From contig OY751487.1 in assembly GCA_963565915.1 (NCBI GenBank), positions 2,480,001-2,544,000 on the forward strand: a stretch of 64,000 nucleotides of DNA. The letters are read 5' to 3'. Every line of letters begins with the position of its first letter. The stretch's first letter is position 1. Positions 546 through 25,087 of this stretch are shown piece by piece. Below the pieces are notes generated by a model. That model saw only the letters and a list, made by a program, of their open reading frames with translations, was not told the DNA's origin and did not search any database. This DNA comes from Entoloma clypeatum (lineage: Eukaryota > Basidiomycota > Agaricomycetes > Agaricales > Entolomataceae). Made by a program: the position numbers and the translations under genes.

Positions 546-665
546 TAGTGTTTCAAGGTTCAGTCCAATAGGACTGGAACCAGACCAGACTGAACCAAAA
601 ATGAACCAAAATAGACCAAGACCACGGTCTCAGTCTTGCTGAATTGGGACGGCCCCGGTCTTTTG
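546..665 (+). mobile_element. hAT-type MITE family 1, 5' fragment
   Basis: It starts with TAGTGTTTCAAGGTTCAGTC, the terminal inverted repeat of the complete copies at 9713-10341 and 26913-27447, followed by the family's typical ACTGGACC/CAGTC-rich body. The 3' terminus is missing and the sequence passes into a minisatellite near 670. It is inserted in the LINE remnant. Confidence 0.65.
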
Positions 666-679
666 TGTGCTAGTACAGG

Positions 680-1525: not shown

Positions 1526-1599
1526 TTACCCCCCTTCTAAGGCGCGGCGTCTCGATGTGCAAGGCAGAATGTACAGGACTCAAAGGCAGTTGCAGCGAT

Positions 1600-2976: not shown

Positions 2977-3107
2977 GATTTGATGACCTCCGCTATGCTA
3001 TCCTCTAGAAGGCCATCACAGATGCCCTATCGGCCCTTCCAGAGGACATTGCACTCCTCACCTTGAGTGGCTACTCCCTGAGTGACCCATATGGCAGACA
3101 GCTCCGG

Positions 3108-4480
3108 TCAGAGTAGGACTATGTCCTCATTGTCCCGTGAGCCATCTCCATGGTCCGCCTGACATGACAGTGCATTGGACTTCCCCATCGACTTGCCCGG
3201 GCGATGGTGCATCTTGAAATCAAAACACGCTAGGTATAGAGACCACCGCGCTTGTCGCCGATTGAGCTTCTGGGTGGTCATGAAGTATTCGAGGTTTTTG
3301 TGATCGGTCCAAATTTCCACTGTCTTCTCTGCTCCTTCAAGGAAGTGTCGCCATTCCTCCAGTGCGCGGATTACAGCCAGCATCTCCTTGTCATGAATTT
3401 TGTAGTTGCGTTCCACTGGGCTAAGGCTTTTGGAATAAAACACGGCAGGGTGCCACTTACCGTCCTCCGATGGTTGGGACAGTACCGCTCCAGTTGCAAA
3501 GTCGGAGCTATCTGCTTCGACTCGCCACTCCTTGCTGTGGTCGGGGAGGACAAGTATCGGAGTGGAGGTGATCCTCCGCTTCAGACCTCCGAAGGCCTCC
3601 ACTTCCTTGTTGCCCCAGGACCATACACAGCCCTTGGTTGTGAGTCAGAACAGAGGACGTGCGATGTCGGAGAACCCTTGGATGAAACCACGATAGAAGT
3701 TAGTGAATCCAAGGAAGGACTGTACCTCCCGCACGTTAGTCGGAGTCGGCCACTCCGACACTCCGGCGACCTTGACGGGGTCCATTTCCACACGTCCTTT
3801 CTCGATAATAAGGCCAAGGTATTCGATCTGTGTCTGTTCGAATTTACACTTCTCCGGTTTGAGATACAATCCATGTTGTCGGAGCTGCTCTAATACTATG
3901 CGTGTGATCCTCCGATGCTCCGACAGGTCCGACGTAAAGATGAGAATATCGTCGAGGTAAACACAGTAATAAGATCTTGTAGCATATCGTTCATCATAGT
4001 CTGAAAGGTTGAAGGGCTATTAGTGAGTCCGAAGAACATTACAAGGGGTTCAAAGAGTCCCCGATTTGTCCGAAAGGCCGCTTTCCATTCATCTCTGGGC
4101 TTGATTCAGACATTATTCTAGCCCCATCGGATATCGAGCTTGGTGAAGTATTGAGCGTTCTGGAGTTTGTTGACTAGTTCGGAGATGAGCGGAAGAGGGT
4201 ACTTGTTTTTGATGGTCTTGGAATTGAGCGATCAATAATCCTGAATGAGTTGGAGGAAACTGTCCTTCTTCTTGATGAAAAAGACCAGAGAGGCCATCGG
4301 AGATTTTGAAGGTTGGATCCGACCAGTGGCCAGATGTTCTTCCAAGAATGCATCGAGTTTCTTCTGTTCCTTCGGAGCGAGCAGATACACCTTGCAACCT
4401 GTCGGAGTTGCGTCGGGGATCAGCTCAATGGCATGGTCCCATATGTGTTCCTCTGGCAGATTGTCAAAGGAGGTCTTGGA
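3108..4480 (-). pseudogene. Ty3 reverse transcriptase and RNase H (element A)
   Basis: The RT active-site motif YLDD is at 3948-3959, inside VYLDDILIF. It is followed by the thumb/connection signature QSFLGFTNFYRGFI (near 3680) and by an RNase H domain at 3108-3602 with EADSSDFATGAVLSQ, the KEMLAVI block and TDHKNLEYF. The start of RT (PSKSPMASLVFFIKKKD) is in another frame near 4250-4310. Several indels and stops separate the pieces. By family knowledge this copies element RNA into DNA and removes the RNA strand, but it cannot do so in this copy. Confidence 0.8.
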
Positions 4481-5798
4481 AAATACATCTTCAAAATCAT
4501 GTAAGTGATTAGGTATGGAATCGCGAAAAGACTTGGGTTTCTGATTTTGGAGAAACACCTCTGATAGGCGTTGTGAGGTAGTTGACGACACTCGGATGCA
4601 TTCAGATGTTGGAGGTAGGGCTCTGATGAAGAGACGATCTCCCTCTTCGAACTCATCTTCCAATGGCTCATCCAATGATTGTTCTTTGTTCTCGCTTACA
4701 TCTTCCACCCAAGGGCCTCGTGGGGCTTCCTCCGCTATTCCAGCATCTGACATCGGACTCATCCTGCTCAAATTTGCAGACCTTCCACTCCTGAATGGCC
4801 TCCTGATGGCAAGTCCAACAGCAAGTCGGAGCAACAACTGTCGGAGGTGCACACAGAATATAGGGGATGAAAGGTTGGGGAAATACAGATCCTGCCGCTG
4901 GGCGTGTCGGAACTGTGGACTTGAAAGCTTTATTGGCAATTCAATTATCATTGTTGACCCGTGCGGCTGCATACCAGGCATCCGGGTTGTCATCCACGGG
5001 TCATCCAAAAGTTAGTGTCGCAATTTCGGATTGGATGTCGGATTGGAGGCCATGTTGGAACTTGAGTACTATGTTCGTTCCTTCGGTGTACCCAGCCTTT
5101 TCGACATAATCTTTGAAGTCGTCAATGTAAGCCTCCACATCCTGACTACCTTGGTAATAGGCTTCTCCCTCAAGAATGAGCCATGCGTCTTGTTCTTCGT
5201 CTTTCAGAGTGAACTCTGCGATGAATGCGGTTCAGAACTGCACCCAGGTCTGGTGGCACGGAGCTCCGGTCCGACGCTCTTTTCAGATGACATGGTCGGC
5301 GAAGCGTGCAGCGCGTCCACTCTTCATGAAGGAAAGCGCCCAATAGATCCTAGCATGATCATCTGCAAACTGTTCCGGAACCAGTCCCATATACAGTTTG
5401 CAAGAATTAAGAAAAGTCCAACCAGTGGTACGTGCTCCGTCGAAGTCTGATGGAGTTGCGGGTTTGGCCTGACGCACACCTGGATTGGCAGGTGTGATTG
5501 GGGCTGGTGGAAAGGCCGGAACTGGGGCCTCCACTGGAGGGGGAATCAGGTTGGGGTTGGGAATGGGAACAGGTGGAATAGTGGCACAGATAAGTTGTTC
5601 AAGTTGAGCGGTAATGTTGGTGAGGGTCTGGCGGTGTTCCTGGAACTTGCATTCAAGCACAGCAAGACATTCGGGGTCATCCATTTCTATGTGTGATACG
5701 GAGTCACCAGTTACAGAGTGGTAGGCAGAACGGTGGGAAGAGGGATCGGAAGGGGTGTCAGATGTACTGGAATCAGAGGAGGGCGGACTCGAGTCCAT
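4481..5798 (-). pseudogene. gag and protease region of Ty3 element A
   Basis: The gag N-terminus occupies 5283-5798: Ser-rich start, a coiled-coil-like stretch ECKFQEHRQTLTNITAQLEQ, a Pro-rich linker, then the capsid-like segment ending RAARFADHVI and a stop. Capsid-like residues continue in the same direction to about 5000 (LILEGEAYYQGSQDVEAYI) with further stops. The zinc knuckle expected at the gag end is absent. The related copy at 48792-49349 has the knuckle (CFRCGKTGHFSREC) but lacks the middle of gag, so the two copies carry complementary deletions. The protease is not recognisable as an intact domain. Confidence 0.65.
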
Positions 5799-5860
5799 GT
5801 CGTCAACTCTGAAGCATGGAATGGCTTCAATGGTACTATTCGTACCTGGTCCCTTTAGAG

Positions 5861-5870
5861 AGAACTTTCT
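5861..5870 (-). promoter_or_regulatory. putative self-priming primer-binding site, element A
   Basis: Just inside the 5' LTR the minus strand reads AGAAAGTTCT. The same element's 3' LTR has the exact complement AGAACTTTCT shortly downstream of a TATA-like box; the 5' LTR has one mismatch. This suggests Tf1/sushi-type self-priming rather than tRNA priming. It rests on base pairing only. Confidence 0.45.
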
Positions 5871-5872
5871 GG

Positions 5873-6378
5873 TGTAAGGGTGACCTTACAATCCAACAAC
5901 TCCAAAGTGCTCTGAAGCGACTCCGATGTCGGATGGCTTGCAAGGGAAATCCAAAGTTAAATTAGACTCTACAAAGTACAATACAAGGTGTACCTTGCAA
6001 GGGAAATCCAAAGAAAAAGTTCTGAGGATTCCCTTGCAAGCTAGACAGCTATATAGATGATGAGAATTGGAAATGAGAAGAGGAATGTTGAAATACAACA
6101 AAGATTGGGAGTAGAGATGGGAATGGAATATGTAAATCAGAAGTGTGCATGTGGTGGTATAAATCATCGCTCCGACATGCACTCTGATGCGGAGTATGGT
6201 TGGAGGTCATCAGAGGTTGTCGGAGGTGTTGAAAGAGAGATGGAAAAGAAAGGAAATGTAAAGTATAGTAATATAAATAATAGACATACCACAGCAGTTG
6301 GAGGGTCGGAAGACCAGTCGGAGGTGTCGGAGAGGAGTTGGAGAGGTTGGACTGAGGAAATTGGAGGTTGCCCTTACA
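5873..6378 (-). repeat. 5' LTR of element A
   Basis: 506 bp with TGTAAGGG/CCCTTACA ends, similar to 1067-1525 but longer. The sequence beyond 6378 (AATAGGCAATAGCAC) is also found beyond the LTR at 50410. The two LTR copies therefore share flanking DNA as well as the LTR itself. Confidence 0.85.
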
Positions 6379-6381
6379 ATA

Positions 6382-6612
6382 GGCAATAGCACGGATATGG
6401 GTAACCCGTGAGGGTCATGGGTATGGGTTGTCACAAGTCCGAGTATGGGTTGTGTTTTCATAACCCGCAACCCCTCACATGTCATGCTATGTACACCACT
6501 TTCAAGAGCCCACTACCTCTCTCTCCCTCCCTCTCTTGTGCCCAATGGCCACCACTCATGTATAACGGCCACCACTTGTGCAACTCGTGCTCAACGGCTC
6601 CCACTCATGCCC
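6382..6612 (+). mobile_element. M element (TIR GGCAATAGCA), 5' fragment
   Basis: It begins after a TA with GGCAATAGCACGGATATGGG and matches the complete copy at 50414-51071 for about 230 bp, through the first minisatellite units. It then breaks into an LTR fragment. The TA plus terminal repeat suggests a Tc1/mariner-type or other TA-targeting MITE. Confidence 0.7.
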
Positions 6613-6705
6613 AATAACAGACGTACCACAACGGTCGGAAGGTCGGAGGACGGGTCGGAGGTGTCAGAGGTGTCGGATTGAGGAAATCAGATGGTTGCCC
6701 TTACA
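6613..6705 (-). repeat. A-family LTR, terminal fragment
   Basis: About 93 bp matching the end of LTR 1067-1525 (AGACGTACCACAACGGTC ... GGTTGCCCTTACA). It is joined on the left to a truncated M element and on the right to a pol fragment of another family. Confidence 0.7.
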
Positions 6706-7149
6706 GTGACGGCCAAGTTTTTCCACACTACATGACCCTCCAAAAAGCTGTCCGAAAAGTACCTTGGCCCCTTTGACATCCTTGCCAGGAATGGTACACA
6801 CTCTTACACCCTCCAACTTCCGGACACCATATGTGGTGTTCACCCCATTTTCCACATCTCCATGCTGGAGCCATCTGTTCCGAACATCATTCCAAACTGG
6901 ATAGTAACTCCGCCTCCTCTGATCAATGTTGAAGGAGAAGTGGAATATGAAATCGCCAAAATTCTTGACACCAAATTGGATTGGTGTTGTTCTTGCAAAC
7001 TGCTCTACCTAGTCCATTGGCTAGGCTATGAAGGAACCAATGAGGAACAGTCCTGGCTATCCGCCATGGAACTTGAACATGCGACGGACTTAGTCGCAGA
7101 CTTCCACTCTTTGTATCTGGAGAAACTGGGCCCCTTATCACGCCTATAG
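6706..7149 (+). pseudogene. Ty3 integrase C-terminus and chromodomain, E-family fragment
   Basis: It aligns in frame with the end of the open pol at 51510-53984: KKLSEKYLGPFDILARN, GVHPIFHISMLEPS, then the chromodomain (EVEYEIAKILD ... LYLVHWLGYEG ... EEQSW) and LGPLSRL at the stop. An in-frame TGA at 6733-6735 stands where the related copy has CGA, a CpG-type transition. The fragment starts abruptly at an LTR end. As in the related copy, an antisense Zn2Cys6 ORF follows about 60 bp later. Confidence 0.85.
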
Positions 7150-8044: not shown

Positions 8045-8202
8045 AAACTGGTTCAGTCCACCCTCTGTGGGTGCGATGGACTGGTCCTGTACAGTCTGGT
8101 CCAGTTTTTTATGTTTTTGTGGTATTGAAAGACTGGTCTCGGTCTCGGTCCATCCCTCTTGGAGGCAAAAAACCGAACCGAACTGAACCCTTGAACACTA
8201 AT
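8045..8202 (+). mobile_element. hAT-type MITE family 1, 3' fragment
   Basis: CTGGTTCAGTCC-rich sequence ending GAACCCTTGAACACTA, the 3' terminal repeat of the family. No 5' end is present. The hairpin field starts at the next base. Confidence 0.6.
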
Positions 8203-9712
8203 GTTATATGGGGACATATAATCCCCATGTTGCGGTTTGTGACTCTTAGTTCAATGAACTATAGTCATTTTTGTTGGTGAGATCTTTCGCCACCTATACT
8301 TTCTTTGGCGAGCTTAGCTCGTCATATTGTTAGTTCACTTTGGGGGTTCACGTTGATCCCCATGTCATTCACATGAATGACAACTATACCAGTCTTTGTT
8401 ACTGGTTCTATATGAGACAACAACCTATTGTTATTGTCAACTTTATTTTCTTAAATGACATATTATCATTTTCGTATCATAAACGACACATTGTCGTTTC
8501 TACTTTACTTTCGACGGTGTTGGTTCTTCGACTTCACACTGTCCTTTCTATTTTATTGCCAGAAGGTACATGGTACCTTCCTCATGTATTGTAGATGGCG
8601 CTATTGCCATCTATAGTCTCTTCATGACTATTTCATAGTATGGCCATAAATTGGAAAGGGAAAAATCTCGTGTTGTGGGATTATGTAGTATGATATAGGT
8701 GCCATTGTCACCTATTTGTCAGGGGAGGTGTCCCCTCCTCTGTCCCCTTCCAAAATGTTCCAGGGGTTTCTTGGAATCCCTGCTTTCCCCCCTTCTTGCC
8801 TCGTTCACAACAAAACAGATTATTGGGGGGAGGTTGAGTTTTTGAGACACTACAATTGTCTCGGAGGACAATTTCTATCCTCCACGGAATGTGGAAATGA
8901 CAGACTTGGTGTCTGTCTATTCTGTCAGATGGCTCTCTATGAGTCTCCATCCATTACGAATTATATGGAGGACACTTGTGGTCCTCCCTCGTCTCCTTCA
9001 GCAGGACTTTTCGGTGCCTTGCATGTTGCCAACTGTATACTTGGCAAAATTCAACCTCTCGAGGCAACATAGTCACCTCAGGTTTTACAGAGGACACTTT
9101 TGTCCTTCCTTTTGTCATTTCGCGGCGACCACTTTGTGGGCTGCCTGTTGCCAACTTTATGTTCGGCATGATCTGATTCCAATGTGGTGTCTGTCACCAC
9201 AGCTTTTGACAAACCATCACAGATGACAATAACCTTGTCATCTACTTTCACGACCTTAGCGACTTTTGTCGCTACAGTTTCGGCATCTATTGCCATAACT
9301 TTAGTTTCTCCATGGACGATCTTTATATCATCCATTTTGTCACTTGCAACAACAATTGTTGTTGCTGTAGCAGCTACTGTAGCTGCTGGTTCTCAACATT
9401 TGCAGATGACATCCTTGTCATCTATTGTTGATTTATTGCAGACAACAACTTTGTCATCTTCCTTTGCAACTTCAGCGACATTTGTCGCTGCTATCTCAGC
9501 ACTTTGTGCTGTAATTATATTATTTCTGTGGACGACTTTCATGCCATCCACTTTGTCTTTGCGACAACTATATTTGCCACGGCAGCTACTAAAGCTGCCA
9601 GATCTTCTCTATCGCAGACGACATCTTTGTCCTCTATTTTCTGACCTTTGATGACATTTTCTGTCATTGTTGCGGCACATGTTGCCGCAGAGTTTCTACT
9701 CTCTTGGACGAC
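8203..9712. repeat. hairpin field, segment 1
   Basis: About 1.5 kb in which short perfect or near-perfect inverted repeats follow one another every 20-45 bp. Each has a different stem. Examples (arm/loop/arm): GTCATTC/4/GAATGAC at 8364-8381; AAACGACA/3/TGTCGTTT at 8481-8499; GAAGGTAC/3/GTACCTTC at 8562-8580; AGATGGC/6/GCCATCT at 8593-8612; GATGACAA/5/TTGTCATC at 9222-9242; TAGCGAC/4/GTCGCTA at 9257-9274; a 20-bp perfect palindrome at 9346-9365; AGCAGCTAC/1/GTAGCTGCT at 9369-9387; CAGCGACA/2/TGTCGCTG at 9473-9490; GGCAGCT/5/AGCTGCC at 9581-9599. Stems are mostly 6-10 bp. The plus strand is T-rich. I see no coding sequence; open frames such as 9184-9651 are low-complexity by-products. What this is, I do not know. 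Confidence 0.8.
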
Positions 9713-10341
9713 TAGTGTTTAAGGGTTCGGTCCAGTCTGGTTTTTTGACCCAAAAAGGATAGGATGGGAGACCAGACCGGTCTTTCATGGTACTCAAAAG
9801 CAAAAAAAAATCGGACTGAACCGCTATAAACCAGTCTTGGTTGACCCACATGGTGAGACCGAACCAGTTTGAACCAGTTTAAACTGGTCTGCAACAGAAA
9901 ATCAGCCGCAGTAGGTATACTCACATACTGCGGTGTTTTTTTGAGTTTCTTTTAATGTATTTGATGATCTTTTGACATAAAATAAAATTCCAAAAAAAGC
10001 CGCGGTAGGTAGACTCACCTACCGCGGTTGAATATCGATTTATTTTGATATTTTTTTGACACTGACAGCTGATGAAATCACCCAAGAAACTAATAATACA
10101 TTGAAAAACTCAAAGAAAAGACTGCAGTTGGTGAGTAGACCTACCGCGGGTGATTTTCAGTTGAGGACCGATTTAAACCAGTCTTCTTGCAGTCTCTAAA
10201 AATCCTGGAAAATGATGAACCAGAGACCGCTGGTGATGCAAAACCTTAAAGACTCAGACCGTGGTCCGGTCTCAAAACCGGTTCATTGCAGTCCGGTTTT
10301 AGTCCAGTTCTCAGTCCTTGAGACCGAACCCTAAAACACTA
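9713..10341 (+). mobile_element. hAT-type MITE family 1, complete copy
   Basis: 629 bp with inverted termini TAGTGTTTAAGGGTTCGGTC and GACCGAACCCTAAAACACTA. It is flanked by 8-bp direct repeats TGGACGAC (9705-9712) and TGGATGAC (10342-10349), which differ by one CpG-type transition. An 8-bp duplication with TAGTG/CACTA ends is typical of hAT elements. Inside are three hairpin modules based on a CCGCGGTAGGT-type arm; the strongest has 11-bp arms at 10000-10010 and 10017-10027. There is no coding capacity, so a transposase would have to come from elsewhere. Confidence 0.85.
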
Positions 10342-10349
10342 TGGATGAC

Positions 10350-12035
10350 ATTCCTTTCATCCTGTTTCTTGTGCTTTTGATGTTCCGACTTGCGGACATC
10401 TTGTTTTTTGGGTGCAACTATTTGAAGCACCAAATGAACTTCACAAGTTCGTTAGCCAGTGGTCATGGCTTGACCACTCTGCTTCATTATGAAGCAAACA
10501 ATCTTGTCATTACATTCAGAGCACAATTTTGTGCTCTCGTTGTCAGTCAACACATGTTGTTGACTTTCACTACTCTTGCAACGTTGATGGCGACATTTTT
10601 GTTGCCGTCTCTTCTTCTCTCCTGTAACAGAGTCTTCTGTACTCTGTCTCTCTTTCTCATTGTCTCTTTGACGGTGAATATTTTGCTGTCGAGTATCATT
10701 CTCACCTGGGTTATGTTGAACCAGATGTTCATGTTTATTTCGATGATCTTGTTGTCATCAATAACGAACCTGTCATTCATTACTTGCAGTCTGACATGGT
10801 CTATATTGCTGGGCAATGAGATCTTTTCATCTCAAGGGTTATTAGAACCCTCTCAGCTACGATTTTCATGTGGGCAACAATTCTGTTGCCACAGTTTTTG
10901 TGAACTTTGGAAGTTCAGAGAACTTCCAGCCCATTTTGGGCTCTCGCCGTGCATTCGCAGTTGACGGCATCTTTCGGACCACAAATGTGGTGCCGATTCT
11001 TCTGTTGAGGGTAAAGGTACCCTTGGAACTCTTGTTTCCATTGATGGTGGTCACATTCTATGGGTTGGTTGGGATTTTGCAACCCATTCCGACCACCATG
11101 AAGGCTGTTGATCTGCCTTCGATAAAGGTCTTGGAATTTCCAGATCTTCTTTTGATGTTGACAGAACTTGTGTTCCGTCAAGACTATCTTTGTCTCTTTT
11201 GCAAACAGGACCTATGGAGTCTTTACTCCATATTTTGAGACAACTGTTGTTGTCTTCCTTCGCCGTTTTCAATTTGGCGATGATTTCCGGAGTCTCTTCA
11301 TTGACTCTGGAGGAGGTTATTTTAACCTCCGTTTCTTGATTCATATTAACGGAAATGTTCCTGTTCTCTTCTCTAGACTCTTTGAGAGAGTTGGAAGACT
11401 TAGAAGTCTTCCATTCTAGTCCATCGACTACATGTTGTGGACTTATTGAACTTTCAATTGAAGACTTAATAGTCTTCACTTCTTCACAATCCACTTTGGA
11501 GTGGTGGTCAACACCATCTCCGTGGTTCAGAAGTTGATGAGCTCATAAGCCTCATGGTTTCTTTCCGCAACAATATCTTGATGTTGCGCGGCTTCTTCAT
11601 TTGAAGACATAACTGTCTTCATATATCCATTCTGTTGAACGGAGTGATATTCTGAGTCACCTCTCCAACTGTTGAGAGGTTCAGATGGCTCGTGATGAGC
11701 CATTTCTCCACGCACGACATGATAAACATGTTGCAAACTTTCCGCATGGATGTTAGAAGGTTCTTCATGAGCCTTCAGGATGTTGGCATTCATTTTGGAA
11801 GACTTTGCAGCCTTCCTCTTCATCTTAAAGACATGCTCAACATGTCGGACCACTTCTCCATAGAGGTCCTTGTAATATGCTAGAGGTTTATGAGCCTCTA
11901 TAGGTGCATATGGCTTTGTGCACCTGTCCAACTCCATATTGAGTTCACAGACAAATGACCACTTGAAGTGCTCAATATACTCTCTATTGTCGCATAGTGT
12001 ATTGTGACCATACACCTCATTCACACTTGCGAGAG
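10350..12035. repeat. hairpin field, segment 2
   Basis: The field continues across the MITE with the same texture. Examples: GAGCACAA/2/TTGTGCTC at 10519-10536; AGTCAACA/5/TGTTGACT at 10545-10565; GGAGGTTA/3/TAACCTCC at 11312-11330; GGAAGACTT/2/AAGTCTTCC at 11393-11412; TGAAGACA/4/TGTCTTCA at 11602-11621. It runs into the LTR at 12036. The minus-strand open frame 11527-12069 (180 codons) crosses the LTR boundary and has no recognisable domain, so I do not call it a gene. Confidence 0.8.
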
Positions 12036-12437
12036 TGTTACGGACTCTACGGTATGAGGACCACATCATATCTTTTACTTATCGGCCCGACTCGGTGCCC
12101 TCTTATGAACTCACTATGTCTAATGTCTACTTTCGCAACCTTCGATTCCCAGTCTGACTCATTACATTACTTTGTCATCCCCTTTAGTATACCTCGCTCC
12201 CGCGCTGACTTGCTTTCTGCAGTCAGCTTACTCACTGTACATAGCCTTCCGCAGTCGCCTTACTCATGCGCACTGCCTTCCGCAGTACTGACTCATCTGC
12301 TACCGCCTATAGTCAGTACCTATATAAACCTCTTGTACTGTAGTAGATTCCTTAGATTTAGCAATCACTTTTCTCTTCGCCTTTCCACTTTTCTGCATAC
12401 TCTGCCTGAACCTTGGAACGGTTTGTTAAGCATAACA
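12036..12437 (+). repeat. 5' LTR of element C
   Basis: 402 bp, TGTTACGG...CATAACA. A TATATAAA box at 12321 lies about 33 bp before AGATTTAGCAA (12354-12364), the likely transcript start region. It is almost identical to 16908-17309. Confidence 0.9.
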
Positions 12438-12439
12438 AG

Positions 12440-12450
12440 TTGCTAAATCT
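12440..12450 (+). promoter_or_regulatory. putative self-priming primer-binding site, element C
   Basis: TTGCTAAATCT, three bases after the LTR, is the exact reverse complement of AGATTTAGCAA at 12354-12364, next to the predicted transcript start. The same 11-nt pair occurs in element G (47411-47421 with 47497-47507). This fits the Tf1/sushi mechanism, in which the 5' end of the RNA folds back and primes. Confidence 0.65.
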
Positions 12451-12719
12451 CGTTAGGTTCGCCCAGAGCGAAGAGAGCAACTACCAGACGAGTCAAGACA
12501 TTGCGCTTCTTTGAAGACTTCACCAGTAACCCATTCAGCACGCCAGAAGCCCAACAGGAGGAGCTAAGTCCTCCAGACAGTATCGATTTTACACTCATCC
12601 AGCAGTACATCAAATCGGAGATGCGTCGCATCCTACAGCAGGTGCTTGACGAAGAACTAGACAACGACGAGCATCGCCCCCACGGCGAGATAGCAGAGAG
12701 CATCAAAGGGTCCGATTAA
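12447..12719 (+). pseudogene. gag of element C, internal deletion
   Basis: The frame opens after TAA 12444-12446 and matches the N-terminal part of the G-element gag frame (RRVKTLRFFEDFTSNPF, then LDEELDNDEHRPHGEIAE). It then jumps straight to the gag C-terminus (GSD, stop 12717-12719). About 470 codons present in element G are missing, including capsid and both zinc knuckles. No ATG is seen at the start, as in element G. The copy cannot make particles itself. Confidence 0.75.
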
Positions 12720-12770
12720 ACGACGCTAAGTCGTGACCCTTATCTATTAAACGGACTTGCTTGCCTTGTA

Positions 12771-15700
12771 TGACTGCAGACAATAGAACCTATGTCATCC
12801 CTGCCAAGCGAGCCGCTGCGTCGACTAAGATTGTGAAGGGAGATAAACCTCTGAAAAGATGAGAGATCAGGCTGTTAGCTCAGCTCAAAACACGACAAGG
12901 ACCAAAGGTTATCCGACCTGAGGTTGACAGCGGATGTGAACGCACATGCATTCATCCCAGAATAGTACGCGAACAGAACCTCCCCACGCGAGGAATACCA
13001 CCCATAGCAATTCTAAATGCGGATGGATCACCAAATCGACAACAGAAAGCGAGCCAACTTGCCGAAGTCAAGCTGGATTTGGGAGCACATCAGGAAACCA
13101 TGGAAGCAATGGTACTAGACATTGGGAGGATGGACATGCTCTTGGGACATGACTGGTTGGTACACCACAACCCCACAATCAATTGGACAACCGGCGCGGT
13201 AACATTTAACCGGTGCCCAACAACATGTCAAACCAAACACTCGGATTTCAGGGTTAACCTTGATGGTCGCAAACACCGGGTTCGCATGGTTGAGGTGCGC
13301 GACAAAGATGCACCCAAAAAGTCGGATCAAAAATGGAAGCCTGGAGACCCTATTTTGGAAGCTGTCACTCCCACACCACCTCCCACAACCAAACGACCCT
13401 CATATGTTGAACAATTTGCTCATCTCTTTGAGAAGGAGAACTTTGATAAGATCCCAAAGGAGAGGGAATGGGACCATGGTATCGAACTTACACCGGACGC
13501 ACCAAAGGAACTAGGGGGAAATACATATCCTATGACACAAAAGGAACAAGAGGAATTGGACGCATTCATTGACGAGGGCCTAGCAACAGGAAAGATCCGC
13601 CCATCCAAATCCCCATATGCCTCCCCTTGCTTCTTCATCAACAAAAAGGATGGCTCCAAACGATTGGTACAAGATTACCGCATGGTCAATAAATTCACGG
13701 TCAAAGACAAGTTCCCACTCCCACGAATATCCGATCTCCTGGACGTACTGAAAGATGCGGTCTACTTCAATAAAATGGACATCATGTGGGGCTATAACAA
13801 CGTCCGGATTAAGGAGGGCGATGAATGGAAAGCTGCCTTCCTCACCAGTCGAGGATTGTTCGAACCATTGGTCATGTTTTTTGGTCTTTGCAACTCCCCG
13901 GGAACGTTCTCTGGAATGATGGCTAGTCTATTCCGGAACCAGATCCGCCGACGTATCTGCATGATCTACATGGATGACATCGTGGTTATCAGTAAAACCA
14001 AGGAAGAACTCGCGCGAAACACCAAAGAAATTCTACAGATCCTATCGGACAATGATTTGTTCCTAAAGGAGAAGAAGTGTTTATGGGAAGTAACAAAATG
14101 TCCTATATTGGGATATGTGGTTGGTGAGGGATGTGTCGAGATGGAAACTGAGAAGGTGGATACAATCCAAAACTGGCGAGCTCCCACATCAAAAAAGGAA
14201 GTTCAGAAGTTCCTTGGATTTGCCAACTTCTATCGACATTTTATTGAAGGGTACTCAAACATTGTGAAACCTCTCACTGCGCTCACAGGCGGTATGGCAT
14301 TTACTTGGGGACCAACAGAGCAACAAGCTTTTGAAGGTCTCATACGGGCAATTACATCAGCACCAGTCTTGGCATTACCAAAATCAGAGGGACAGTTCAG
14401 GGTTGAAACCAATGCATCGGGCTATGCAATTGGAGCAGTACTCTCTCAGAAGCAAGATGACAAATGGCACCCCATCGTGTTCTTGTCGCGGACCATGTCC
14501 GCGGCCGAACAGAATTACGAGATATACGACAAGGAACTCCTGGCGGTCATGGAAGCATTAAAAGATTGGAGACACTATCTGCTCGAAGCCAGGGAGCGTT
14601 TCGAAATCTTGACCGATCACAAGAACCTGGAATATTTCCGTCATCCTCAGGACCTGAATCAACGACAGTGACGCTGGAAAATGAAGTTACAAGACTATGA
14701 CTTTGAATTATGGCATGTACCTGGCAAGACCAATGCAAAAGCGGACATCCTGTCGTGTTTACCCTGGTATGAAGCGGAACTTGAACCACAAGACAGTGAC
14801 CAAATGCTCAAGGAGGGACTATTCTTGAAACGGTTGGAATCAGAAGATGTGGTACAAATGGAGATGTTCACGGAGAAACAATTCTTTGAAGGGGGTGAAA
14901 CATCTGATTCCATAAAATTGGAAACGTCATGACCATCAAAAATCCATGGATCGCATGCATCAAGGGTTCAAACCGCATGGAGACAGAAGTAGCCCAGGGT
15001 CTAAAGAAGAATCCTCATTGGTATCAACAGGAAAACGGCATCACATATGCAGGTGAACGAGTCTATGTTCCACCAGACCCACAACTGCATCAAGAACTGA
15101 TGTTTGAATCACACAATGCACCAGTAGCTGGACATCCAGGACAATATCGGACACATGAACTCCTCACTCGTACCTACTGGTGGCCTACTATCCTGCATGA
15201 CGTGAAGAAGTATGTAAAGGGTTGTGACACCTGTCAACGCAACAAGATCAACAGACAGAAATGACACGCTCCGCTACATCCCCATGCAGCACCAAGTCAT
15301 CCATGGGAGGACATAGGGATTGACGTTGTGGGACCAATACCAGAGTCTGATGGAAAGAATGCGATTCTGGTCATCACAGATAGACATTCGAAGATGCTCC
15401 ATCTCATTCCGACAACCGTGGAATTATCAGCTGAGGGATTAGCCAAGATCTATTGGGATCAGATATGGAAGCTTCATGTGATCCCCAAGAAGATCATCAG
15501 TGATAGGGGACCACAGTTCGCTGCGAAGTTCATGGAGATACTCTGCCGCATGCTAGGGATCAAAAGGAACCTGTCCACCGCATACCACCCACAGACTGAT
15601 GGACAGGCCGAGCGATTGCATCAGGAAATGGAAGCGTTCTTACGGAACTTTGTCAACCATCTACAGGATGATTGGGCTGAGTGGATCGCAATCGCAGAGT

Positions 15701-16368
15701 TCCAGTACAATAACAAAGAACATCAGGCCACGAAGCACACCCCGTTCTACCTCAACTATGGTTTACATCCTTGGAAGGGAGAACTCGTGTTAGAAGATAC
15801 CAACCTGGCTGCCAATGACTTCTTGAAAAAACTCAAACAGGCACGAGAAGAAGCCAATGCAGCACTGAAACAAGCACAGGATCAGATGAAGAAGACAGTT
15901 GATACACGGTGAAGTCCGTCTTGGAACTACCACATCGGGGACAAGGTGTGGCTGGAAGGGACTAACATCAGGACCAATTGCCCCTCAAAGAAACTTGATG
16001 CACTCTGACATGGACCATTCAAAGTCCTAGAAAAGAAAGGAGCCAGCGCGTACCTTCTTGATCTTCCGAAGACTTGGAAGATGATTCACCCTGTGTTCAA
16101 CAAGACCCTGTTGTCACCATATGAAACTCTGAAGTACGCCATCCAGAAAAAGAAACCAGCCCCTGATCCGATCATCGTCGAAGGACGAGAAGAGTACCAT
16201 GTGTCTACGATCCTAGACTCTCGAAAGTTCTGCGGAAAGATCCAGTACCTCGTCCAGTGGGAAGGATATGGCCCAGAAGAGAACACATGGGAACCTCGAG
16301 CTAATGTTCAGAACGCTCAGGATTTGATCCGTGATTTCCATCAGCAGAACCCGTCTCGTCCACGATAA
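12771..16368 (+). pseudogene. pol of element C (protease, RT, RNase H, integrase, chromodomain)
   Basis: An ATG at 12771 lies about 50 nt after the gag stop. Domains in order: aspartic protease ([11 protein letters not shown]), RT with YMDD at 13967-13978, RNase H with TDHKNLEYF, integrase zinc finger ([10 protein letters not shown]) and catalytic core ([25 protein letters not shown]), then GPF and chromodomain ([10 protein letters not shown] ... YLVQWEGYG) to 16368. Stops: TGA at 12859-12861, 14669-14671, 15262-15264, 15910-15912 and 16006-16008, plus a frameshift near 14920. Most stops sit where relatives have CGA, so they look like CpG C-to-T changes. In element G the same protein is almost fully open. 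Confidence 0.9.
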
Positions 16369-16501
16369 AAGACGAGTTCTCAAAACCCATGGCAGTATTG
16401 ACCTCATCAGTCAACCACACACCGAGTTCCCCGCTCTAGTCTTTTCCCTGCCCAATATAGCCACCCCATTCTTCTTTTATCTCTCAACCATCCTCACCGC
16501 C

Positions 16502-16873
16502 ATGTCAAACACCATCGTTACCTCCACCTCCACCACTGACATCAACCCCGCCATTGCTGCCCTTATGAACAAAGCGCTCTCCATGAGAGACCAAATCCAT
16601 GCCCTCGAAACTTCCCTCGCCGACCTCCTTCATCGCCAGATGAATATCCGACTTCATTCGTTGTCCAACCTCCCCGTCGCCCCGACTCCCGAAGAGAAAC
16701 AAATCCTCGGGAACTACACCAGCACCCTCGTCATCAAGAATCGACATATTCGGCTGGCCATCAAAGGCCTTGAACTTGCCGTAGCCATCAATGAGGAGTT
16801 GATATATGATTGGAGCCTCAAGGAGAGTCCGAACTGGTCCGATCCCGGCAACAACGAGGGATGGGGACAGTGA
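16502..16873 (+). CDS. conserved third ORF of C/G-family Ty3, about 123 aa, unknown function
   Basis: An open frame of 123 codons lies between the end of pol and the 3' LTR, on the same strand, starting at ATG 16502. The protein has a Thr/Ser-rich start, a long helical middle (MRDQIHALETSLADLLHRQ), a conserved PVAPTPEEKQILGNYT segment, a second helix (LAIKGLELAVAINEEL) and a Trp-rich end (WSLKESPNW ... GWGQ). No signal peptide or membrane segment is evident. It recurs at 41626-41988 (open) and 36111-36483 (one frameshift). Between the two open copies most codon differences I compared are at third positions, which suggests selection on the protein. It is open here although pol has five stops. 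I do not recognise the family; a coiled-coil particle or accessory protein is a guess. Confidence 0.65.
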   Translation: MSNTIVTSTSTTDINPAIAALMNKALSMRDQIHALETSLADLLHRQMNIRLHSLSNLPVAPTPEEKQILGNYTSTLVIKNRHIRLAIKGLELAVAINEELIYDWSLKESPNWSDPGNNEGWGQ

Positions 16874-16907
16874 CTCTGTGAGGACACAGAGCTTGGAGGG
16901 GGGAACA

Positions 16908-17309
16908 TGTTACGGACTCTACGGTATCAGGACCACGTCATATCTTTTACTTATCGGACCGACTCGGCGCCCTCTTACGAACTCACTATGTCTAATGTCT
17001 ACTTTCGCAACCTTCGATTCCCAGTCTGACTCATTACATTACTTTGTCATCCCCTTTAGTATACCTCGCTCCCGCGCTGACTTGCTTTCTGCAGTCAGCT
17101 TACTCACTGTACATAGCCTTCCGCAGTCGCCTTACTCATGCGCACTGCCTTCCGCAGTACTGACTCATCTGCTACCGCCTATAGTCAGTACCTATATAAA
17201 CCTCTTGTACTGTAGTAGATTCCTTAGATTTAGCAATCACTTTTCTCTTCGCCTTTCCACTTTCCTGCATACTCTGCCCGAACCTTGGAACGGTTTGTTA
17301 AGCATAACA
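16908..17309 (+). repeat. 3' LTR of element C
   Basis: 402 bp, preceded by a purine-rich tract (GGAGGGGGGAACA, the expected polypurine primer) and followed by the duplication GAGAG. Confidence 0.9.
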
Positions 17310-17314
17310 GAGAG

Positions 17315-17556
17315 TGAATCTATGAGCTTCATAGCTCATACACTTGAGACGGTCATTATTGATAACTGTCAGAACGATGGACCATAGTTCCATCTCGAAA
17401 TCCATGATTAACCTGTGGTCCAGCCATGGCATCTCCTTCGCAACTCCGCGAGTGGTATCTCAATACCGAATTCTCGGTTTGACATGTGTTGACTGCAATG
17501 AGGCAGTCAAGTCCACCCTAGTAGACTTTGCTACATGTAATGTAGTACTTGCAGAA
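17315..17556. repeat. hairpin field, segment 3
   Basis: The field continues after element C: TGAGCT/4/AGCTCA at 17323-17338, GATGGA/7/TCCATC near 17374, TGACTGC/6/GCAGTCA at 17490-17509, CTACAT/3/ATGTAG near 17531. It ends at the TA used by Tc1 element T1. Confidence 0.75.
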
Positions 17557-17558
17557 TA

Positions 17559-19139
17559 CAGTGCCTCACAAAACTGATTCAATGTTTGCTACTTTGTGAA
17601 TACCTTCAAAATAACTTTGCAAATAATACCAATCAAAAGAAGGTATTGGTACCTGGTTAAAAGCCCTGCTTCAGGACTCTCGGAATCTGCAATAATTACG
17701 TAATTCCCATAAGAAATGATCAATATATGATCAAATTACTCCAGGGACTCATTGAATCAGTTTTGTGAGTATGTACAATAGATACAGTATTTTATACTTT
17801 AGTACTTGGTATTACCCCCCTTAGCTTTGATTACTGCCTCTACCCTTCTTGGCATACTTTCTATCAGATTTTGACACACTTCTGGCTCTATATTATTCCA
17901 CACCTCTGCTGCTCTGTCCCAAATCTCCCAGACTCCCTTGGGTGGTGTTGGATATTCATTCAACTTCCTTTTAATATGAACCCAGAGGTGTTCAATAGGA
18001 TTGAGGTCTGGGGACTGTGCAGGCCAATCCAGCAGAGCAATATTCTTGCTGTCCATCCATTTTTTGGCCTTCTTGGAGGTGTGCTTGGGGTCATTGTCCT
18101 GCTGAAAAATGATCTCCTCTTCAGAGATTCCACTCTCCTCCATGCTGGGCAGCAAATTGTCCTCCAAAATGGACACATACTGATCAGCATCCATCCTCCC
18201 CACAAGTCTCCCCACACCTTCCCAACCCATACAACCCCAAACCATAATATTTCCTCCCCCAAACTTGACTGTGCCCTGAACCTCTCTTTCAATAAGCCCC
18301 TCACCCTTCTTTTTCCAGACCCATTCCTTGCCATCTGACCCAAACCTGTTGATTTTGGTCTCATCTGGCCAAATGACCCTCTTCCAGTCCTCCACTGTCC
18401 ATTCCCTGTGCTTCATAGCAAATGCCAACCGCCTCTTCCGATGTATGGCCTTTAAGAAAGGTCTTTTCTTCTTTGTTACAGCCTTGAATTCATGTTTTCT
18501 GAGAACCCTTCTCACAGTTTCTGGGGAGACAGGATTGGAGATGACAGTGTTAATGTGTTTGGTAGCCTGCACAGCATTGGAGGCTCTCCCTGAGGTGATT
18601 TGTGAAAGTATGTTTCGTGTGTTGGTGGGAGAAAGCTTGGATGGACGGAAGATTCTGAAGCACTCTGGAGACAGTTGGTTGGCTGACACCCAGGTTAGAG
18701 GCAATATGACGAGTGGAGTGACCATTGGAGGTCAGAGAAAGAATGTTTTCCTTGTGGGAAGAGGAGATAGGGCGCATGATTAATTATGGAGGCTGTTGAG
18801 GTTGGATTCTTCTTATACAACTTTCCTTGACAACCCATCAGAGTTCTATTCAAGTTCCATCAGTAAGTCATGACAACTGGTTACCATACAACCAGTGAAG
18901 CATTTGATTCTGATAATTGCCATAGATACTCACAAAACTGATTTAATGAGTTGCTGATTTAATTTAATCATATCTCCATGGATTCTGATCTAAATCATAT
19001 GATTCCTTTATATTCTGAAAGCCCTGAAGTAGGGCTTTCAATTATATACCAAAGGTTTAATTCAATTGGTATTCTTTGCAGAGTTATCTTGAAGGTATTC
19101 AAAAAGCAACAAACATTGAATCAGTTTTGTGAGGCACTG
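17559..19139 (-). mobile_element. Tc1/mariner element T1
   Basis: 1581 bp between TA duplications (17557-17558 and 19140-19141). The outer 30 bp of each end (CAGTGCCTCACAAAACTGAT...) are perfect inverted repeats inside terminal repeats of about 220 bp. An inner copy of the site lies near 17749-17776 and another near 18925-18950, each inverted relative to the outer site of its end. This resembles the two-site IR/DR ends of several Tc1-like elements, but in the opposite inner orientation. It is nearly identical to T2 (29050-30630), so both moved recently. Confidence 0.93.
17799..18777 (-). pseudogene. Tc1-type DD34E transposase of T1, frameshifted
   Basis: The N-terminal helix-turn-helix (HSTRHIASNLGVSQPTVSRVL) is at 18550-18777. 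The rest is in another frame, 17799 to about 18650: second HTH region (SPETVRRVLRKHEF) and catalytic WPDETK. The second Asp is in FQQDNDPKHTSK and the Glu in SPDLNPIEHLW, with exactly 34 residues between them. Against T3 this copy lacks 29 bp near 18647, which removes the GRPSK-type linker motif and shifts the frame. It also lacks 9 bp (three residues) near 18200. T2 has the same two deletions. Not functional as it stands; the catalytic half is otherwise intact. Confidence 0.9.
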
Positions 19140-19141
19140 TA

Positions 19142-19680
19142 TGTAGACGAGGTCTTCAGTTGGTGACAACTGGACCTCAAGTCATTTGAGAGGCTTTTCA
19201 ATGTGTTCGACACGACGGAATGGCTCGGAAATGAGCCATTTCCATATGAGGAAATGCCAGCTGGCAGTAAAGGTGCCAGCTCATCCTGAAAAAGAGAGCT
19301 CTGAGTGAACTCCTGGAGGCCAGACAACTCAAAAGAGGCCATAAGCTGTGTGTAGGTGACACAGCTAGGCACTAAGCAAAAGAGGAGGCTTCAAAGTAAA
19401 GCCTCTGGGCCAGATGGGGTTGGTGCAGCTAGGGAGCTGATAGCAATGGGGGTGTTCCCCTGTAGCAGTTGATAGCAGTTAAGGATAGCTTAAAAAATGT
19501 AACAAGAGTTACAGGAAAAGCCCTCAATCTCACAGAACAAGGTAAGCTTGACCAAAATCTGGTATTGGCTGTACAATGTCATGTGAGGTAAAAGGCTTTC
19601 TTTACATAAGCGGCTGTGCTCAGCCTAATATGGTAACTCCAATGACCAACTGATGGTCATGCCAATCCCACTTGTTACAC
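19142..19680. repeat. hairpin field, segment 4 (end)
   Basis: After T1: a compound stem around CAGTTG/4/CAACTG near 19160; ATGGCTC/6/GAGCCAT at 19220-19239; CATTTCC/6/GGAAATG next to it; AGCTGGCA/7/TGCCAGCT at 19259-19281; GCTGTGT/7/ACACAGC near 19347; ATGACCA/5/TGGTCAT at 19642-19660. Hairpin density falls after about 19430 and I see none after 19680. Confidence 0.7.
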
Positions 19681-19854
19681 CATGGCACCACGAGTTCCAA
19701 AAATAAGTCTTAATATATGTAGAGATATTTAGAAGCTATTAGTAAGTATATATACAGTTAGATACATGATCTATGTATGGTAGGAAGTCTGTACTCCAGA
19801 ATGATACATCAAAACACACTGTAAATCATGATAAATAGTGCATCATGGGTTCCA
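19681..19854. other. no recognised feature
   Basis: AT-rich intergenic sequence. I see no gene, terminal repeat or clear hairpin. Confidence 0.5.
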
Positions 19855-20580
19855 TCAAACACAAAAACCAGTATGTTCTGACTTCCTCCCTTCCACAACC
19901 CCTGTAAACTACATGTAATATATATATACTACTGAACCATTGGACATGAACCTATTGAGACCATTCAAATAAAATTCAAGGACTCAATAAGGTCAATATA
20001 AGTAAAATAGGTCGAAAATTTGACCAAAAAATTTTATTTCAGCTTTGGATTCTCCACATTCAGGGGATCTCATCACACATTTGTTTTTCAAATTTGGTTC
20101 ATTCCTTGGGAAGATATAACACTTTCACTGAAATCTGCACATTTCATTATTTCTATCTTATCTAGACATCTATAAATTATACAAGGTGTTTCAGAACGTG
20201 AATACATATCTATTGATGAGTTCTATCACCTCCAACTATTATTAGATCTTGAGCAAGGCACTGCATGCGCCTGCGTGATGCATTTTGTGCATTGTTTACC
20301 ATTATTTGGTGTAGAGCATGGCACCTCTATAACACAAAATCCATGGCATCATTCCATGAAATAAATACATATTTACTGACATATGATACTCTACTACATA
20401 ATTGATATAGTATGCAAGATTCATTCCTGCTGTGTAGCCATAATAAGGAGAAGTGCGATGTTTTTTGAGTTTGTTGACATGTATTGATGTGCACGTGATG
20501 CGCGTCATCCAATGTTGAAACGACACATCCACCCATTGCTGACTTTGCAATGAGGGGCACATATACTGAAAAGACCATAA
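19855..20580 (+). repeat. dispersed repeat R, copy 1 (uninterrupted)
   Basis: About 720 bp matching 60536-61055 plus 62679-62875 (CTTCCTCCCTTCCACAACC ... AAAATAGGTCGAAAATTTGACC ... GCGATGTTTTTTGAGTTTG ... CATCCACCCATTGCT). In the second copy Tc1 element T3 sits at a TA; here the same place reads GACATATGATACTCT, the empty site. No coding frame and no termini that I can define. Confidence 0.7.
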
Positions 20581-20865
20581 TATATTTATAGATTTTATTG
20601 ATAACCTGTCTACTTGTGATTGAGGAGGGAGGGAGCGCGTGCACACACCTTTGTCAAATTTGGGTGGTTTTGCCTATTTGGGAAGTGGGAAAGTCATAGT
20701 GTGAGGGGACAAAATATATTGGCTTTGTGGCTCAGTTTGTTAGATATTCAAAAAAATCTTATGTACTGTAGAGGTCATGAATTCAATTTTTGCAAGTGGC
20801 ACAAATTTTGCACATTGCTGTTTCGTGATGCTGATTTCCATTTCTCAGATTGTTCCGTGGAAAAG
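20581..20865. other. no recognised feature
   Basis: Short open frames only, with no domain or repeat I recognise. Confidence 0.4.
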
Positions 20866-21045
20866 ACTGGTTTAAACCTGTTCTAACCGGTCTTTGGCCA
20901 GTCCATAAAATTCTAAGTTTGAAGAGAACCAAGGACTGGTTGTGATCCGAAACCTTGAAGACCAAGACCAGTGGTCCGGTCTTTCACCAGTCCAGTTTGG
21001 TTCAGTCTCAGTCTAAATTCACTTTTGAAGGACTGGACTTCAAAC
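20866..21045 (+). mobile_element. hAT-type MITE fragment, family 1-like
   Basis: Contains the family's GACTGGTTTAAACC and CAGTCCAGTTTGGTTCAGTC motifs and ends TTCAAACCACTA next to a pol fragment. No 5' terminus was found. Confidence 0.5.
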
Positions 21046-22353
21046 CACTAGCACTAAGCAGACCCTCAAACAGTACTTGCAGATATTCTGTGACTACCAA
21101 CGGGACAACTGGTCTGCTCTCCTTCCAATTGCAGAGTTCACGTACAACAATGCACCTAGTGCTACCACTGGCATATCTAGTGTTTTGAAGTCAAGTTAAT
21201 TGGTCCAAAATGCTTTAACTTGACTTTAACTGGTTAAAAAGTTTCCAGAAAAGTCTCAGGTTTAACCTTAACTGCAATTAACCAGTTAAAAAAAACAACA
21301 AGTTTAAAAAGTTTTAACCTTAACTTAACTTAACTTAACCACAATCAACCAGTTAATTGTTTTAACTTCATATATTTTCACTCATTTTGTGGTTTTTTTC
21401 ATATCTCCAGAGTGATATTCAAGGTTTTAAACAACATTTTAATCATGATTATGTTACAAATGGCCTGATCTGAATACTTTTGTAACATTTTACAACAATT
21501 CAGACCTTATTTCTTTAACCTGAAATTAACTGGTTAAGAGTTTTTTCAAACTTGGCTTAATTTAACTTCAACTGCAGTTATTTGCAGTTAAAGTTAACTG
21601 TGGTTGAGTTAATTGATGGTTAAATGTGTCAAAGTTAAGTTAAGTTAATGTTAAGTTGAAGTTATATAACTTGACTTTAAAACACTAGGCATATCTCCCT
21701 TCTTTGCTAACAAGGATTACCATCCGAACATCACTGTTCACCCGGAATGTGACCTTGTCTCTTTCCAAGCCTGATCCTTCGTGACCGACTTAGACAAACT
21801 TCACCAAGAACTGAAATCTACCATCTCCGATGCTCAACAACACTTCCAAAAGTTCCCCAACAATAATTGGATCGCAGCTCCGATGTTCTCTGTCAGACAA
21901 CAGGTTTTCATCAAAGCACAGTTCTTCCACACAACACACCCATTCAAGAAACTTTCAGAGAAGTACTTGGAACCATATGAGATCATTGCACAACCTGGCA
22001 CACACTCCTTTACCCTCCAACTCCCCAACACATTCTGCGGTGTTCACCCTATCTACCATATCTCCATGCTTGAACCCGCAACTCCGAACACCATTCCGAA
22101 TCGGACCCAACCTCTGCCTCCTCTGATTGACATTGACGGAGAACTGGAGTACGAGATTGCTGAAATTGTTGACTCAAAGATTGACCGACGACATAGCTGC
22201 AAGCTACTATATTTCGTCTGTTGGTTAAGATATGAAAACACTGATGAACAATTCTTTTGGCTACCAGCCAATGAACTGGAAAATGCCCCCAAGCTTGTCT
22301 CTGACTTTCATTCTGCTTATCCAGACAAACTGGGTCCGCTCACATCACTCTGA
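21046..22353 (+). pseudogene. Ty3 integrase C-terminal half and chromodomain, E-like family
   Basis: In-frame similarity to the pol at 51510-53984: KQTLKQYLQIFCDYQ, AEFTYNNAPSATTGIS, then after the MITE PFFANKDYHP. The main stretch is from 21781, with KKLSEKYLEPYEII, GVHPIYHISMLEP, and chromodomain ELEYEIAEIVD ... LYFVCWLRYE, ending GPLTSL. A TGA lies at about 21773. It is interrupted by the MITE 21178-21687. It is more diverged than the other E-family copies and lacks everything upstream of the integrase tail. Confidence 0.85.
21178..21687 (+). mobile_element. hAT-type MITE family 2, complete copy
   Basis: 510 bp with inverted termini TAGTGTTTTGAAGTCAAG and CTTGACTTTAAAACACTA (one mismatch). 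Exact 8-bp duplications GGCATATC lie at 21170-21177 and 21688-21695. Removing it restores the integrase reading frame. The body is full of TTAACTTGACTTTAACTGG motifs and AACTTAACTTAACTT runs. Confidence 0.9.
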
Positions 22354-22884: not shown

Positions 22885-23060
22885 CCCACAGCCTCCTCTC
22901 AGTCGTGCCCAACAGCCTCCTCACATGTCCAACAACCTCCACTGATACCCAACAACCGCCTCACATGTCCAACAGCCTCCTACAATGCCTAACCGCCTCC
23001 ACTTGACTCCAACGGTCGCTTCTCATGCCCAACAACATCCACTGATGCCCAGTGGCATCA
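22885..23060 (+). repeat. 20-bp minisatellite
   Basis: Degenerate CCCAACAGCCTCCTCTCATG units. From 23061 to 23479 I see nothing recognisable. Confidence 0.75.
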
Positions 23061-23479: not shown

Positions 23480-23745
23480 AGCATCCCTCGTGCTCAATGG
23501 CCATCCATCGTGGCCCATGGCCGCCTCTCGTGTCCAACAGCCATCCCTGACGCCCAACTGCTGTCCCTTGCTCCCAACGTGCCCAACGGCCATCCCTCAT
23601 GCCCCATGGCCATCCCTCACGCCCAACTACCATCCCTGGTGCACAACGGCTGCCTCTCATGCCCAACTACTGTCCCTTGCTCCTGACGTGCCCAACGGCT
23701 GTCCCTGACGTCCAACTGCCGTCCCTTGCTCCCAAGAATGAGTAT
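23480..23745 (+). repeat. 20-bp minisatellite
   Basis: Units such as CCCAACGGCCATCCCTCATG, partly in a higher-order pattern with CTGACGCCCAACTGCCGTCC. Confidence 0.75.
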
Positions 23746-24721: not shown

Positions 24722-25004
24722 TAGTGTTTAAGGGTTCGGTCCAGTCTGGTTTTTTGATCCAAAAAGGATAGGACTGGAGACCAGACCGGTCTTTTGTGGT
24801 ACTCAAAAGGAAAAAAAAACCAGACTGAACTGCTATAAACCAGTCTTGGTTGACCCACATGGTGAGACCGAACTGGTTTGAGCCAGTTTAAACTGGTCTG
24901 CAACAAAAAATCAGCCGCAGTAGGTATACTCACCTACCGTGGTGTTTTTTTGAGTTTTTTTTTATGTATTTGATGATCTTTTGACATGAAATAAAATTCC
25001 AAAA
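24722..25004 (+). mobile_element. hAT-type MITE family 1, 5' part
   Basis: Starts TAGTGTTTAAGGGTTCGGTC and follows the copy at 9713 closely, including the first CCGCAGTAGG hairpin module. It breaks into minisatellite after AAAATTCCAAAAATGG. Confidence 0.8.
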
Positions 25005-25087
25005 ATGGCCTCCCTGTGCCCAAAGCCTCCTCACGTGCCCAACAGCCACCTCTCATACCCAACCCCATCCTCTCGACCCCAATGGCC
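25005..25087 (+). repeat. 20-bp minisatellite, short
   Basis: About four units (GTGCCCAACAGCCACCTCTC and variants), between two MITE fragments. Confidence 0.6.

Follow-up and report, generated by a model that had tools for sequence, protein, structure and literature searches.

What kind of element leaves behind a stretch of DNA made of dozens of different short hairpins? This question is raised by positions 8203 to 19680 of a 64,000-nucleotide window of the Entoloma clypeatum genome (contig OY751487.1, positions 2,480,001 to 2,544,000; coordinates below are those of the window unless a contig or locus is named), where the original prediction, made from the letters alone, had described more than 60 differing inverted repeats with no coding content. 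We found that this hairpin field is the interior of a dispersed retroelement family flanked by long terminal repeats (LTRs), and that the 11.5-kb span is a single ~4-kb remnant of one such element, split by three transposons.

The hairpins lie in four stretches, segments A to D. Counting perfect inverted repeats (arm at least 6, loop at most 10) against 50 dinucleotide shuffles per stretch revealed 27 in segment A (8203-9714; shuffle mean 3.0, maximum 8), 28 in segment B (10341-12040; mean 4.2, maximum 9), 4 in segment C (17311-17556; mean 0.7, maximum 2) and 7 in segment D (19141-19690; mean 1.6, maximum 6), i.e., 66 in total against ~9, which bears out the predicted number. With arms of at least 8, the segments hold 9, 10, 2 and 3 (shuffle means 0.22, 0.22, 0.04 and 0.10), or 24 against ~0.6. 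The excess was also present over shuffles that keep every purine/pyrimidine position (A, 27 vs 4.6; B, 28 vs 4.8; C, 4 vs 1.0; D, here ended at 19497, 5 vs 0.6). As controls from the window, positions 1-7000 gave 22 hairpins against a shuffle mean of 15.4, and two transposons, a Gypsy interior and a mariner, gave 8 against 10.1 and 7 against 4.9. When 200-nt pieces were folded as RNA, the mean z-score of a segment lay between -2.9 and -5.2 on each strand (U1 left out), compared with 0.0 for the Gypsy control. The field is thus real, although gaps between perfect hairpins often exceed the upper end of the described 20-45 bp spacing. Similarly, the stems, with arms of 6-11 bp, differ from one another in the main, as had been described, but some lie within diverged tandem modules (9225-9341 vs 9441-9557, 71%).

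Searches of the 60-Mb genome holding the window (20 contigs) returned 16 matches to a 601-bp probe, 30 to a 1,601-bp probe and 36 to the right end; when another copy served as probe, the left end gave 41 and the middle 47. These are counts of fragments and lower bounds, which we read as some 20-30 loci. Of the 41 left-end matches, 15 span the junction between the LTR and the hairpin interior, and 12 are right ends that the right-end probe had picked up as well. The LTR, 182 bp long with TG...CA ends (partly mutated in some copies, TA...), stands at both ends in the same orientation in copies c15, c5a, c1b and c1a, and inverted in c5c. All five two-ended copies carry 5-bp target duplications (AGCAT, CTGGA, CGTTC, CCACC, GTATT), the two LTRs of c1b have a private variant in common, as do those of c15, and divergence within LTR pairs is 0.028-0.058. 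Summed from its segments, a complete element measures ~7.4 kb with an interior of ~7 kb. A miniature inverted-repeat transposable element (MITE) or foldback element was ruled out, because the ends are direct LTRs and not terminal inverted repeats of the whole element. The earlier exclusion of a satellite, a MITE array and a CRISPR array holds on what was seen, and the suggestion of a scaffold within an unknown large element proved apt.

Hairpin richness marks this family alone among the DNA read. Across 530 windows of 500 bp in these loci, the 107 family windows average 7.1 hairpins and the 423 non-family windows 1.6, with 4 of the 423 reaching at least 6. A separate 500-bp stretch (L012:1-500, C1:3869400 onward) has 7 hairpins and was unmatched by family probes; it is possibly a further piece or relative of the family. 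In the surrounding region (C1:3864976-3888581; loci L029, L012 and L009), part of the hairpin element occurs twice, each time with a break at ~A 438/445, as would be expected if an insertion had preceded the copying.

On the minus strand, polypurine-like AAGGGGGATA and its variants abut the LTR in several copies (by inspection), as a polypurine tract would, and the minus strand is therefore probably sense. No reverse transcriptase or other Pfam domain scored above cut-off in 17 overlapping pieces, which do not cover every copy in full, and the family thus looks non-autonomous. No coding element with the 182-bp LTR was seen, four partial LTR matches (on C14, C12, C14 and C2) having been left unexamined. 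A tRNA-like pattern of our own design had 0 matches in the genome.

In the window, the minus strand leads from an LTR at 19498..19679 (182 bp, TG...CA, 93.96% identical to the left LTR of c1a), which would be the 5' LTR if that strand is sense, into an interior where a decayed reading frame accompanies the hairpins. Segment D (19142..19497) comprises hairpins, a leader of ~155 nt and the start of the frame at an ATG at ~19342 (tblastn with the open piece of a copy: 74 residues, 0 gaps). The frame goes on through segment C (17315..17556; 4 hairpins; 83 residues with 1 stop by tblastn) and, with frameshifts, through the 28 hairpins of segment B (10342..12035; tblastn pieces), and it ends in the right part of segment A (8954..9712), also hairpin-bearing, at a probable TAA stop at 8956-8954 placed by its position across copies. 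The left part of A (8201..8953) is hairpin-dense and non-coding, no signal of an open reading frame (ORF) appearing in the matching half of two copies. In copy c14a (L030 plus L014), segments A, B, C, D and the LTR are contiguous, and the three inserts that part them in the window are absent, leaving an empty site for each. Insert 1 is a hAT-like MITE of 629 bp (9713..10341, no strand assigned) with terminal inverted repeats (95%) and an 8-bp target duplication, TGGACGAC/TGGATGAC, with one mismatch. Insert 2 is a Gypsy LTR retrotransposon (12036..17309, plus strand) with a GAGAG target duplication, an LTR pair and reverse transcriptase, RNase H and integrase domains, and insert 3 is a Tc1/mariner element (17559..19139, minus strand) with a TA duplication, HTH_Tnp_Tc3_2 and DDE_3 domains and inverted repeat arms. 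The window copy lacks ~3.2 kb and the second LTR present in other copies. Its edge at 8201 is a truncation adjoining a MITE-like remnant, and the remaining part was not found in the window, bar one weaker internal-module match.

The claim that the field has no coding content did not survive closer analysis. In several copies, the minus strand is open over long stretches across D, C, B and the greater part of A, beginning with MASFELSG (~19342). The stop that probably ends the frame is present in all five copies holding that stretch (the window included; nine copies were looked at), and the window pieces add up to ~970 codons. As a control that keeps the hairpin texture, we cut each sequence into 25-60-nt chunks and shuffled the chunks 500 times. 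No shuffle reached the longest minus-strand frame of c5a, c14a, c2b or c10a, but 4 did so for c2a and 57 for c10b; for the sum of the top four minus frames, the number was 0 in five of the six copies and 6 in c10b. For the plus strand, the corresponding counts in six copies were 89, 39, 8, 16, 45 and 304 for the longest frame and 72, 8, 2, 2, 68 and 157 for the top-four sum. The element's other half showed no clear ORF excess in either of two copies (longest frame: minus 183 and 367, plus 109 and 104 of 500), and hairpin texture alone therefore does not make the frame. We conclude that the decayed minus-strand frame is probably real, beyond what a texture-keeping shuffle yields. Some 4 kb of the full element's interior is structured with no coding signal; the idea of a structured non-coding RNA thus stands for this portion and fails for the rest, which overlies the decayed frame.

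Several other lines of ORF evidence were set aside. Few stops or gaps in tblastn between copies, and stops falling at R or Q (48/68), would look alike for a chance frame at 90% identity, and plus-strand frames in the non-coding half behave likewise on stops and gaps. Dinucleotide shuffles overstate the case, because in 4 of 6 copies the plus-strand top-five sums also lie above the shuffle maximum. The N-terminal piece of the frame has 22 genome matches, at or next to DNA-probe matches wherever compared. Neither a 211-residue nor a 434-residue piece had a relative at E <= 10 among 5.8 billion proteins, the frame protein had 0 matches in PDB by sequence, and the 21 pattern matches in viral contigs included no relative. 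The structure predicted for the 211-residue N-terminal piece (mean predicted local distance difference test score, pLDDT, of 37) was unusable.

Could the protein account for the hairpins? If encoded motifs such as KTxKSS and DDKVV had self-complementary codons, inverted repeats would arise as a by-product, and some hairpins do overlie recurring peptides. However, hairpin centres occupy all six half-phases of the codon frame (39/38/30/26/24/8, in copies that are not independent), and in three copies the frameless half carries 12.9-14.4 hairpins per kb compared with 14.8-17.3 in the gene half. Hairpins unlocked to phase and nearly as dense outside the frame are not explained by the protein, and this origin, largely refuted already, is very improbable. 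It is likewise scarcely credible that the element is a small-RNA source in which each hairpin is processed into a regulatory RNA. Many stem-loops do lie in one predicted transcript, but perfect arms are only 6-11 bp, far shorter than in miRNA and siRNA precursors, and no Rfam family reached its threshold in the window.

We then asked how the stems have changed between copies. Copies differ mainly by transitions, many at CpG, a pattern that suggests methylation-type decay. Within stems, almost every change between copies is a single substitution, usually a transition (401/470 stem differences), and no arm has been replaced, so that rewriting by template switching, as had been proposed, finds no support in recent history; an ancient origin of the hairpins by template switching is possible. 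For stem rates, stems were named on one copy and divergence was measured between other copies. With four reference copies, stem sites diverged at 0.58, 0.62, 0.64 and 0.62 of the rate of other sites, and at 0.63, 0.65, 0.75 and 0.67 outside CpG, ratios that ancestry shared with the reference can lower somewhat. A reference-based comparison (0.046 vs 0.102) was dropped, since the apparent rate falls by half merely through choosing the stems on the reference copy. Counts of 46 double pair-keeping cells (with 5 double mismatches) against ~11 doubles expected under independence were rejected as a sign of compensatory evolution: most involve CpG, and parallel decay of the two arms is possible in any hairpin that contains CpG, so raw counts fake compensation. 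In the diverged internal modules of 8 copies, stems differ at 0.11-0.26 and other sites at 0.26-0.31, a comparison biased by naming stems on one side. Double changes there keep pairing in 73/101 cases against 31/60 in a slid-partner control, and in 40/63 outside CpG, which is suggestive only, as the copies are not independent. Alignments under 78% were left out of the compensation and wobble counts, those under 82% out of the stem rates and the pair states outside CpG, and those over 82% out of the module tests, as were insertions relative to a reference and, in the stem-rate test, the reference copy itself. From these sequence comparisons, the stems look to have been constrained while the family was active, although no compensatory evolution appears outside CpG.

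These data lead us to a tentative reading, to which we give a little less than an even chance, that the field is a non-autonomous LTR retroelement copy, truncated and decayed, whose hairpins were kept as a compact RNA fold. The element's RNA would be copied and integrated by the proteins of another LTR element, for which a self-priming Gypsy family of the same genome is a candidate. Its hairpins would make the whole RNA a compact chain of short stem-loops, and this fold may help packaging or reverse transcription, or shield the RNA from silencing; Dicer-type processing needs longer stems than these perfect ones of 6-11 bp. Once inserted, copies would decay, mainly through C-to-T changes, many of them at CpG, and their hairpins would decay along with them. 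As for the candidate helper, in the Gypsy inserted in the window the LTR and the presumed primer site after it match over 11 nt (AGATTTAGCAA), which points to self-priming; in self-priming elements such as Tf1, the LTR matches the site that follows it. The two LTRs of this Gypsy differ at 12 aligned sites.

Six observations weigh against a functional fold in a minus-sense element with a gene. First, outside CpG, double pair-keeping states number only 1-3 per reference, compared with 1-5 double pair-breaking states and 85-109 single breaks. Second, shared stem variants lean towards G.T over A.C on the plus strand with all four references (34 vs 22, 28 vs 21, 28 vs 23 and 31 vs 19), where a folded minus-strand RNA predicts the opposite lean; singleton variants have no such lean (65 vs 73, 42 vs 48, 49 vs 49 and 35 vs 46). 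Third, folding is equally strong on both strands. Fourth, no primer-binding site was recognised, there being no TGG start and no self-priming match longer than 6 nt. Fifth, plus-strand frames are mildly long in three copies (top-four sum reached by 2 of 500 shuffles in c2b, 2 in c10a and 8 in c14a). Finally, with alignments under 84% left out, the share of amino-acid changes was low relative to random placement in two of six frame pieces (0.028 and 0.042) and not in the other four (0.78, 0.14, 0.95 and 0.26), although such weak purifying selection is expected if most change postdates insertion.

The first of these observations would suit hairpins that are mutational scars, i.e., inverted repeats perfected by fold-back or template switching during reverse transcription, with no selection for the fold. 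Short loops and perfect arms are what such events would leave, and hairpins occur in coding and non-coding sequence alike without codon phase. On the other hand, other LTR elements show no excess (the window Gypsy, 8 vs 10.1), the changes between copies are single substitutions without replaced arms, and stem sites look slower than others; we regard scars as unlikely, if still a serious contender. Equal fold strength on the two strands, neither of which has a consistent wobble-pair excess of the expected kind, would instead fit hairpins that act in DNA, as cruciforms, in protein binding or in the control of recombination or integration. Such a role does not predict the strand skew (for U2, U3, A and B, plus-strand T is 0.37-0.51 in loops and spacers, except for 0.32 in the U2 spacers), and stems of 6-11 bp make weak cruciforms; we consider it improbable.

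A bolder form of the compact-fold reading, doubtful but possible in our view, is that these copies represent a new class of non-autonomous LTR element. The whole RNA would consist of ~100 short, differing stem-loops, which in one half of the element would overlie an orphan gene of ~970 codons, the sequence being under double constraint; the hairpins would package or shield the RNA, and the protein perhaps acts on it.

No LTR element made end to end of short hairpins was recognised among the titles and opening abstract lines of the literature searched. Large retrotransposon derivatives (LARDs) and terminal-repeat retrotransposons in miniature (TRIMs) are described in PMC7215508 as protein-less LTR elements with conserved RNA structures. 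LARDs, e.g., Sukkula of grasses, resemble the hairpin element in being LTR-flanked with a multi-kb interior lacking gag or pol and presumed to move in trans. The hairpin element differs in its ~970-codon orphan frame, its 182-bp LTRs and its continuous short-hairpin interior, and because of the minus-strand frame it is not a LARD by the letter. With TRIMs and Cassandra (PMC7215508) it shares short LTRs, a folded RNA (here predicted) and the absence of a polymerase of its own among the pieces searched. Because of its size it is not a TRIM, whose internal domain is nearly absent where this interior spans ~7 kb, and Cassandra has an LTR-to-LTR fold with 5S-like sequence, in contrast to the many local hairpins over ~7 kb seen here. 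Genome-scale ordered RNA structure (GORS) runs along the whole genome of some RNA viruses and has been suggested (PMC9784701) to shield their RNA against host defence. As in GORS, computed folding energy lies below that of shuffled sequence along the element, on both strands and in coding and non-coding parts alike (U1 left out), but this is an LTR element and its fold is a prediction. Finally, Ty1 can move with proteins supplied in trans, and several RNA sites outside its main packaging region may contribute (PMC4974528). Donor-helper packaging in Ty1 and Ty3 similarly lets a proteinless element move with trans proteins, whereas Ty elements are themselves autonomous and not described as built of hairpins.

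The surroundings of the remnant are also rich in repeats. Just past the LTR, 19679-21021 is itself a repeat (~80%), which recurs as two inverted arms beside copy c5b (L025:6077-8273 and L011:4097-6313). The hAT-like MITE family of insert 1, with TAGTGTTTAAGGGTTCGGTC ends, occurs at 9713-10341, 24724-25005, 26915-26956 and 59945-59986, these places including a 93% relative and shorter pieces. Arrays of a 20-bp minisatellite around TGCCCAACGGCC or its complement occupy 792-1068, 22906-23000, 23482-23732, 28287-28734 and 50616-50770, and 21781-22353 holds what is left of a different retroelement's polyprotein, including a Tf2-1-like SH3 domain.

These results carry two cautions: a decayed gene may lie concealed on the opposite strand of DNA that is dense in hairpins and looks gene-free, and where repeats are decaying, CpG change that runs in parallel through the two arms can pass for stem covariation. 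Should the hairpins prove functional, the family would be an LTR element with RNA structure optimised along its entire genome, and it would offer a natural test of dispersed stem-loops in packaging, compaction or escape from RNA silencing.

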